Assembly: GCA_025360225.1 (NCBI GenBank)
Contig: JANYCN010000013.1
Coordinates: forward strand, 62,001-126,000
DNA from: Actinomycetes bacterium
GTDB taxonomy: Bacteria; Actinomycetota; Thermoleophilia; Gaiellales; F1-60-MAGs149
Direction: 5' to 3'
Length of the DNA stretch: 64,000 bases
Shown: positions 23,741-25,660 of the stretch, piece after piece
Layout: the number at the start of each line of letters is the position of its first letter
How positions within the stretch are numbered: position 1 is the first letter of the stretch
Notes under the pieces: model-generated
What the model was told of the DNA's origin: nothing
What the model saw: only the letters and a program-made list of their open reading frames with translations
The model's database searches: none
Position numbers and translations under genes: made by a program

Positions 23741-23794
23741 CTCCGTCCAACACTACTCTCGCCCGCGGTCGATCGTGCGGGCGACGCTCGTGGT

Positions 23795-23810
23795 GTGATT
23801 GTCAGATGGC
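23795..23810 (+). repeat. 16-mer repeat copy A (GTGATTGTCAGATGGC)
   Basis: Copy A lies in the left terminal repeat. A direct copy (GTGATTGCGAGATGGC, 14 of 16 identical) lies at 24105-24120, and an inverted, more diverged copy at 24076-24093. The three copies frame the element. Confidence 0.65.
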
Positions 23811-23834
23811 ATCGTCATTGGGTGTCTGGAGCGA

Positions 23835-23959
23835 GCGGGAGCGTTGCGCGTCGCGCAGGGCTTGCTGATCGCGGGCGTGCTGGATAGCACGCCCGCTCGC
23901 ACGCGTGTCAAGGCGAAGGCCTTGACACGCTAAGCGCAAGCGGCGCGCGACGCTCCCGC
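23835..23959 (+). ncRNA. Possible structured RNA or fold-back: 20-bp stem enclosing two perfect hairpins
   Basis: The outer stem pairs 23835-23854 with 23940-23959 over 20 positions with no mismatch if two G-U pairs are allowed (23845 with 23949, 23851 with 23943). Those pairs are wobble only in a plus-strand transcript; on the minus strand they are A-C mismatches. Inside are hairpin 1 (23871-23881 with 23886-23896, 11 bp, loop GGAT) and hairpin 2 (23903-23914 with 23919-23930, 12 bp, loop GAAG). Hairpin 1 and 2 are perfect. Together they make a three-way junction. Whether it is transcribed is not shown. Confidence 0.45.
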
Positions 23960-23987
23960 GAAGCCCACGATCCGGCACGCAGAGCGG

Positions 23988-24078
23988 GGCGTGGTCGCCG
24001 GAGCTGGGCGGCGTAGCCACCCGCAGGGTGGCGCAGCAGGCAAGCGCAGGACGATCCAGGCAGTCGGATGACCACGCC
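23988..24078 (+). repeat. Second nested hairpin domain of the 23785-24102 element
   Basis: GGCGTGGTC at 23988-23996 pairs perfectly with GACCACGCC at 24070-24078 (9 bp). Between them, CGCCG (23996-24000) can pair with CGGCG (24009-24013), and GCCACCC (24016-24022) pairs with GGGTGGC (24026-24032) around a GCA loop. The right arm of the outer stem runs into the right terminal repeat. Confidence 0.5.
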
Positions 24079-24104
24079 ATTTTCACAGTCAGACCACGAG
24101 CGGC

Positions 24105-24120
24105 GTGATTGCGAGATGGC
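24105..24120 (+). repeat. 16-mer repeat copy C (GTGATTGCGAGATGGC)
   Basis: Direct copy of 23795-23810, 310 bases away and just outside the right inverted repeat. It ends one base before the FtsH-like gene's stop codon region (24122). Confidence 0.6.
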
Positions 24121-24121
24121 G

Positions 24122-25660
24122 CTACCACGATGCGCGGGGGCGATGAGCGCTGCGACCCGATGCCGGGTTACCGCGGCGAGCCCGAACCGCTCCGATCGCA
24201 CCCGACGCCGCGGTGCCCATCGGGACGTCGCGGAGGAGCTCGACGATCTCGGCGCGGTCGAGGGTCTCTGACGCGAGAAGCGCCGTGACGATCCGATCGA
24301 GCGCGTCGCGGTTCTCCGCGACGTGGTCAACGGCTCGCGCGTATGCTCGGTCGGCGATCCGAGCCTGCTCGGCGTCGCGCATCCTCTTCGTCTCCTCCGA
24401 CAGCGCGTAGTCGGTGGCGCGGATCGTACGGGAGGTCACCGTCTCGCCCATCCCCCAGTCGAACACCATCAGCCGCGTCAGCTCGGTGACCCGCTCGAGG
24501 TCGCTCCCGGCTGCGTTCGAGACCGAGCCGAACACGACCTCCTCCGCTGCGCGACCGCCAAGCAGCATCATCACCTCCGCGACGAGCTCGTCGCGGGTGG
24601 AGATGTGGCGGTCGATCTCAGGCAGGTCGAGCACGTAGCCAAGCGCCTCACCGCGCGGCACGATGGTGATGCGATGCAGGCCGTCCGAACGACCGTTCAG
24701 GTGCGCGACGAGGGCGTGGCCGGCCTCGTGGTATGCCACAACCCGCTTCTCGCTGTCGCCCATGGCGATGCGGGACGCGAGTCCGGTGAGCACCCGTTCG
24801 AGGGCCCAGTCAAGGTCGCGGTGCTCGATCCGCTCGGCGTGGCGCCGCCCGGCGTAGATCGCCGCCTCGTTGCAGATGTTCTCGAGGTCAGCTCCCGCGA
24901 GGCCAGCGGTCTGGCGCGCGATCAGCTCAAGGTCGGCATCGGCCGCCAGCGGCTTCGTCCTCGTGTGGACTGCGAGGATCGCCTTGCGTCCGGCAAGATC
25001 GGGCGGAGCGACGAAGATCTGCCGGTCAAAGCGGCCCGGGCGGAGCAACGCGCGGTCGAGGACGTCGATCCGGTTTGAGGCCGCGATGACGACGACGCGC
25101 CCGGAGGCAACGAACCCGTCCATCTCGACCAGCAGCTGGTTCAACGTCTGGTCGCGCTCGTTGTTCAACCCGGTGCCGCGCTGTCCGCCGACCGCGTCAA
25201 GCTCGTCGAGGAACACGATCGCCGGGGCGTTCTTCCGCGCCGCCTTGAACAGCTGACGGATCCGCGCCGCTCCGGCGCCACCGAAGATCTCCACGAACGA
25301 CGACGCTGACTGCGCGTAGAACGCCGCGCCAGCCTCGTGTGCGACGGCCTTCGCGAGCAGGGTCTTCCCCGTTCCGGGCGGGCCGTAGAGCAGCACGCCC
25401 TTCGGGCCGCGTGCACCGAGCCGCTCAAAGCGTTCAGGGTCGCGCAGGAAGTCGACGACCTCGCGCAGCTCCTCCTTCGCCTCATCAAGACCGGCGACCT
25501 TGTCCCACGGCACCGAGGACGCCGCGTCGGGTCGCACTGCCTCGGCCCGCGTGCGCGGGATCGCCGCAGCGGCGCGCCACATCAGGTAGACGAGGGCGAG
25601 CAGGAGGAGGATCGGGAGCCACGTGAGCGCAGCCTCGCGCAGGAGGGCAAGGATTTCCAC
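24122..25660 (-). CDS. Short FtsH-like AAA+ zinc metalloprotease
   Basis: 512 residues. A single N-terminal membrane helix (WLPILLLLALVYLMWRAAAA) is followed directly by the AAA domain: Walker A YGPPGTGKTLLAKAVAHEAG, Walker B IVFLDELDAVG, second region of homology RALLRPGRFDRQ. The zinc site is HEAGH at 311-315, with the third ligand region GSDLERVTELTR. The periplasmic domain and second membrane helix of normal FtsH are missing. It probably degrades membrane or soluble proteins from the cytoplasmic side. GTG 25660 has a leaderless box (25667-25672). A housekeeping ftsH is probably elsewhere. Confidence 0.88.
   Translation of the reverse strand: MEILALLREAALTWLPILLLLALVYLMWRAAAAIPRTRAEAVRPDAASSVPWDKVAGLDEAKEELREVVDFLRDPERFERLGARGPKGVLLYGPPGTGKTLLAKAVAHEAGAAFYAQSASSFVEIFGGAGAARIRQLFKAARKNAPAIVFLDELDAVGGQRGTGLNNERDQTLNQLLVEMDGFVASGRVVVIAASNRIDVLDRALLRPGRFDRQIFVAPPDLAGRKAILAVHTRTKPLAADADLELIARQTAGLAGADLENICNEAAIYAGRRHAERIEHRDLDWALERVLTGLASRIAMGDSEKRVVAYHEAGHALVAHLNGRSDGLHRITIVPRGEALGYVLDLPEIDRHISTRDELVAEVMMLLGGRAAEEVVFGSVSNAAGSDLERVTELTRLMVFDWGMGETVTSRTIRATDYALSEETKRMRDAEQARIADRAYARAVDHVAENRDALDRIVTALLASETLDRAEIVELLRDVPMGTAASGAIGAVRARRGNPASGRSAHRPRASW

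Follow-up and report, generated by a model that had tools for sequence, protein, structure and literature searches.

The segment at 23787-24100 of the window, the whole stretch of 64,000 nucleotides that was analysed, is very probably one copy of a family of non-autonomous transposons (MITEs) with some 140 copies in its host genome. We observed the copy number, the common ends, a series of internal deletions, CTAG borders, a native stop codon preserved at the gene fhs, and the adjacency of the copy to an older one. The family is newly described here but is an ordinary kind of element.

Ends and gene content of the element

A reading made from the sequence alone had claimed inverted ends of ~27 bp around a gene-free interior, with a third, direct copy of the left end outside them, and had offered a MITE or a structured RNA locus as explanations. 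Repeat finding in the window located the inverted ends at 23782-23802 and 24085-24105 (21 nt, 86% complementary), confirming the claim with somewhat different limits, and reading against the family consensus placed the element proper at 23790-24097 (GTGGTGTGATTGTCAGATGGC...GCCATTTTCACAGTCAGACCAC) between CTC and GAG borders:

23787..24100, + strand: MITE copy with its CTMG borders (CTCG...CGAG) counted in, part of an alignment with 17 further full-length copies
23788..23789, strand not assigned: left target remnant TC (TA at this place in 60 of 98 ends)
23790..23813, + strand: left terminal inverted repeat GTGGTGTGATTGTCAGATGGCATC
24076..24097, - strand: right terminal inverted repeat (GCCATTTTCACAGTCAGACCAC on the + strand)

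At 314 bp the copy belongs to the full-length class, whose family consensus is 318 bp. The interior is indeed free of credible genes: the open reading frame search returned a 108-aa minus-strand frame at 23802-24128 that overlaps the repeat only, ARAGORN found no tRNA in the element, and no Rfam family matched it above the gathering score. With its 318-bp consensus, non-coding interior and terminal inverted repeats of ~23 bp, the family has the build of a MITE.

Copy number and deletion series

The host genome assembly comprises 3.24 Mb in 89 contigs and is 97% complete. A DNA search of it matched the copy at 23787-24100 to at least 40 places at 85-97% identity, and the end pattern GTGGTSTGATTGTSARATGGC gave 278 matches within 3 mismatches, compared with 0 for the reversed-pattern control. 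The survey of copies covered stretches from large contigs, 858 kb in total, plus individual loci; a profile search counted 38 loci in the 858 kb, equivalent to about 143 per genome or 0.9% of the sequence, a figure that may be an underestimate since many contigs break inside copies. The multiple copies with shared ends for which the sequence-only reading had advised searching the host were therefore found, about 140 of them, dispersed over unrelated loci and sharply bounded. In the left flank of one locus (L009, G000:C47), ~119 bp are duplicated at 96% identity at C45:179572-179690, ending ~30 bp before an element.

Identity between full-length copies averages 92% and reaches 97% in the closest pairs. 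Complete copies, measured from the outer GTGG to CCAC, fall into length classes of 308-313, 264-275, 250-252, 211-214, 143-149, 119 and 72-73 bp, and a small insertion brings one copy to 332 bp. Both ends are retained in every complete class down to 72 bp, and in the copies of 72-149 bp the interior fold is gone and only the ends are kept. The MITE alternative of the sequence-only reading has thus proved right on copy number, common ends, internal-deletion derivatives and CTAG borders.

CTAG borders and the adjacent relic

Across 98 ends, the border is conserved as C (93%), T (91%) and A (70%) or C (26%), followed by GTGGT at >97%; outside CT[A/C]GTGGT conservation stops sharply, the flanks are random and position -4 is not fixed. 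Positions -3 to 0 accordingly read CTAG or CTCG in most ends, as in IS630-type insertion into TA within CTAG, and CTAG stands at both borders in 12 of 32 complete copies, most others having one or two CTCG. The base just outside GTGGT is A in ~70-75% and C in ~25%, other changes being rare; the choice is independent between the two ends and only weakly linked to end or internal variants (best p = 0.012 among 15 tests). This dimorphism is explained neither by decay of the target nor by simple TA duplication. Where both borders are CTAG, a TA duplication, a CTAG duplication and a duplication-free CT|AG insertion all read alike, and a TA duplication is not provable, as the CTAG is completed by the terminal G/C of the element itself. 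A joined-flank search of the host genome for empty sites returned self-matches only, one of which exposed the relic adjacent to the copy under study.

That relic accounts for the direct copy of the left end. A single further match to the left-end 18-mer, directly oriented and with 3 mismatches, lies at 24103-24120 (0.03 expected in the shuffled window), so that the third copy is real, and we conclude that it is what remains of the left end of a neighbouring older, deleted element:

24098..24099, strand not assigned: two-base junction GA (the TA of CTAG), common to the element and the older relic
24100..24130, + strand: left end of the older element, about 29 bp (GCGGCGTGATTGCGAGATGGC-GCT-ACCAC), then GA

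The arrangement, which had been thought unusual for a simple MITE, is not anomalous: the direct copy is the end of a neighbouring older element, separated from the present one by a two-base target remnant. Four end-to-end pairs of elements occur in the sample and in three of them exactly two bases intervene (ga at the 23787-24100 locus, ta at L132 and tc at L028); such 2-bp junctions fit insertion into a CTAG that bounded an element already in place. ACCAC-GA would then represent the right end of the relic. Its far end runs into an FtsH gene (PF00004, PF01434), the stop codon of which (24122-24124) lies within the relic; had the border kept its TA, the FtsH frame would presumably have ended at the border TAG.

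Landing at gene 3' ends

Gene orientation was called from codon-position G+C, by which, at 51 of 66 callable ends, the neighbouring gene has its 3' end towards the element (p about 1e-5). CTAG is depleted in the sample, with 256 occurrences against 735 expected from trinucleotides, and landings concentrate at gene 3' ends because CTAG is rare inside genes. In 20 of the 51 ends that face a gene 3' end, the stop codon of that gene is exactly the border TAG. This frequency is attributable to the CTAG target itself and calls for no separate preference for stops, since 53 of 138 CTAGs that face genes outside elements are also stops and the enrichment beyond this background was not significant (10/18 versus 53/138, p = 0.20).

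Two loci illustrate the outcome. Beside the copy at C71:92163-92443, the border TAG that ends fhs aligns to the last residue of a solved homologue, 4ioj, and in relatives whose fhs has no element there, seven of nine genes end in TTY-TAG with unrelated sequence downstream; by this homology fhs still uses its native stop, now the border TAG. At L138, IF-2 aligns as far as 2 residues before its end. In both copies the two convergent genes (fhs and its neighbour; IF-2 and an HDAC-family gene) end in a border TAG, and each pair probably overlapped in a single CTAG before insertion. A CTAG-targeting element in a CTAG-avoiding genome is in this way steered onto stop codons, leaving the proteins of both gene pairs intact.

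Fold and its constraint

The + strand of the element folds at -202.6 kcal/mol, compared with -143.4 +/- 5.8 for shuffled sequences (z = -10.2), and the - strand at -179.4 kcal/mol (z = -8.8). The predicted fold is branched:

23835..23959, + strand: left structural domain, stem 23835-23854 / 23940-23959 enclosing two hairpins
23871..23896, + strand: inner hairpin GCGGGCGTGCT-GGAT-AGCACGCCCGC
23903..23930, + strand: inner hairpin GCGTGTCAAGGC-GAAG-GCCTTGACACGC
24016..24032, + strand: right-domain hairpin GCCACCC-GCA-GGGTGGC

Both inner hairpins are missing from the 213-214-bp copies and from the elements of a sister genus described below. Variation was compared in 110 copies using a pairing mask taken from the fold of the consensus sequence alone. 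Unpaired cells differ from the consensus ~3-fold more often than paired ones (16.0% versus 5.3%; 15.9% versus 4.5% in the interior part), shifted masks gave a mean ratio of 1.03 with a maximum of 1.46, and none of 5000 base-stratified permutations reached the observed difference. The effect is limited to G/C columns (0.195 against 0.033), A/T columns showing next to none (0.091 and 0.106). All five double changes in the interior keep the pair. The sister genus retains the left stem, in which both partners of three pairs have changed, although the nine sequences form two clades and so represent few events; stem domains gathered with a loose pattern were mostly noise, and only clear 77-nt members were used here.

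These data bear on the reading of the segment as a structured or regulatory RNA locus, whose fold would be the selected function and whose spread would be incidental. The strength of the fold on both strands, the lower variation of paired positions, the permutation result, the pair-keeping double changes and the sister-genus stem all speak for such a locus; nevertheless we consider it unlikely, as copies with CTAG borders lie scattered, in either orientation, over unrelated loci, the shortest copies dispense with the interior fold, A/T columns are almost flat, the covariation term gives no favourable score among the 18 best copies, and Rfam offers no family. Templated repair between the arms of a palindrome would, moreover, keep the arms matched equally well. 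What stands of the structured-RNA proposal is the strong fold and its mainly unpaired variation, as a property added to the MITE and not as a rival to it. Selection on RNA, use of a DNA hairpin, or arm-to-arm repair could each suffice for the constraint, and the loop of the hairpin at 23903-23930, which occurs among copies in both orientations (GAAG/CTTC), hints at arm-to-arm repair.

A related family in a sister genus

Genome G003, an Actinomycetota MAG of the same family but another genus, carries 36 matches to the end pattern TAGTGGTNCGNCNCGGAAATGGC (control 0). Its elements have the internal blocks CTGGAGCGAGCGGGAG and GCGCAGGACGATCCAGG and the branched fold in common with the MITE studied here, and among 129 genomes of the order the joint end pattern is carried by these two only. 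Searches of other species, viruses, plasmids and phages found no member of the family; the sister-genus end pattern matched one MAG (Bin_62_12, presumably G003) and, by chance, the inside of three genes, in Chelativorans, Kluyvera and Tabrizicola. Since the two genera have homologous families that differ in sequence but have the fold in common, selection on the fold of a bacterial MITE becomes testable. A bolder reading, which we regard as rather improbable, is that branched fold and ends have both been selected in the two genera, with the element moving a structured RNA, or a single-stranded DNA hairpin that serves transposition, to gene 3' ends through their CTAG stops without changing the protein.

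Candidate transposases

In the mechanism that we propose, a transposase acting in trans would recognize the ~23-bp ends and move the element by cut and paste into CTAG, regenerating CTAG at both borders. Landings would gather at gene 3' ends, often on a TAG stop that survives, and copies would afterwards diverge and lose interior sequence while retaining their ends. For the copy at 23787-24100, the target would have been the border CTAG of the older element.

We give about an even chance to a mover of the IS630/Tc1 type that is now absent from the genome. This assignment is favoured by the choice of target, which is TA for IS630 elements and TA within CTAG for IS630 itself: insertion into TA with its duplication is described for IS630 elements in PMC2170065, the reference list of which includes a title on an IS630-associated composite transposon preferring TA in 5'-CTAG-3'. 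The sister genome contains an IS630 element (L149, G003:C34, 1035-2339; 374-aa transposase, ends TAGTGTCCTGTCGC) lying in a CTAG at a MITE border, which demonstrates the target, not the partner. The full-length elements with a transposase between the same ends that the sequence-only reading had hoped for did not materialize: searches with NF033545, PF01609 and PF13358, and end searches around their matches, found no autonomous element with the family ends (GTGGTSTGATTGT) in the host genome, the sister genus or the order. No IS630 (DDE_3) gene occurs in the host genome, and the family ends are missing both at the IS630 loci of other genomes in the order and at the host's own IS5-like and IS3/IS481-like genes; TAGTG is all that the ends share with the sister-genus IS630. 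An IS21 origin, also suggested from the sequence, is not indicated, the borders fitting TA in CTAG and no transposase seen in the genome carrying the family ends.

A different CTAG-using transposase, either IS5-like with a 4-bp CTAG/YTAA duplication or of the IS3/IS481 type with TG...CA ends, is a possible mover that we hold somewhat less probable. Read between two CTAGs, TGGTCTG...CAGACCA does present TG...CA ends, and the host has rve-type genes on C30 and C63 and three PF01609 genes, one of them within a copy of the MITE at C|TAAG. None of these genes, however, has ends like those of the MITE, the nested IS5-like copy ending in TGAAACGGACTC. IS481 makes a 6-bp target duplication, and a duplication of that type misfits a border that leaves position -4 variable. 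According to PMC3189936, insertion of MITEPsy1 in Pseudomonas syringae duplicates CTAG or YTAA, with IS5 as its tentative family, so a CTAG target is not unique to IS630. The nested IS5-like transposase gene (L062, G000:C26, 1-616) has 143 aa visible and one TGAAACGGACTC end, its other end lying beyond the contig; the rve-type remnant at L111 (G000:C63, 1288-2340), flanked by the near-perfect inverted repeats GAGGGGTGCCAA[AG]ACCTCGGAT, is a separate insertion sequence.

Mobilization of a REP/BIME-type palindrome by a RAYT (Y1) transposase was rejected as highly improbable. Y1_Tnp genes are present, one of 234 aa in the host and three in the sister genome, but no element end lies within 1.5 kb of any of them in either direction; the MITE has inverted repeats of 23 bp with CTAG borders, and exceeds tenfold the length of REPs, given as 20-40 bp in the description in PMC3733652. 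The host gene (L205, G000:C16, 1462-2166) is a single-copy RAYT-like gene between unrelated genes.

Comparison with known systems

IS630/Tc1-mariner elements share with the present family the TA target, within CTAG for IS630 itself, but are autonomous and about 1.1-1.2 kb long, and the ends of the sister-genus IS630 diverge from those of the MITE after TAGTG. The family behaves like an IS630-derived MITE but is not filed as such; the missing partner limits the assignment to an insertion sequence, not the MITE label, and according to the overview in PMC2229807 most bacterial repeat elements are without a known partner. MITEPsy1, likewise inserted with duplication into CTAG (or YTAA), differs in its 100-nt length, its 18-nt ends GGAAGGTCTGAAAAAGCC and its link to ISPsy2/IS5, as given in PMC3189936.

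Also close are three families treated in the sections of PMC2229807 on such repeats. Correia/NEMIS of Neisseria, a palindromic MITE, has TA at its termini, inverted ends of ~24 bp and transcripts that fold into long stems; compared by description, our MITE is 2-3 times longer, G+C-rich, multibranched in its interior and specific for CTAG at its borders. ERIC/IRU of enterobacteria has terminal inverted repeats, a target duplication, TA termini and stem-loop transcripts, but measures 127 bp with 7-bp ends, and those sections report no CTAG requirement for it. RUP of Streptococcus pneumoniae is a TA-targeting MITE of about 108 copies for which an IS630 transposase in trans has been proposed; it differs in its 107-bp length, its 9-bp ends and its known IS630 partner with similar ends, our family having none that we found. 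The present MITE is the same kind of element as Correia/NEMIS, ERIC and RUP, and adds a large, G+C-rich actinobacterial family to a catalogue drawn mostly from Neisseria, enterobacteria and the pneumococcus.
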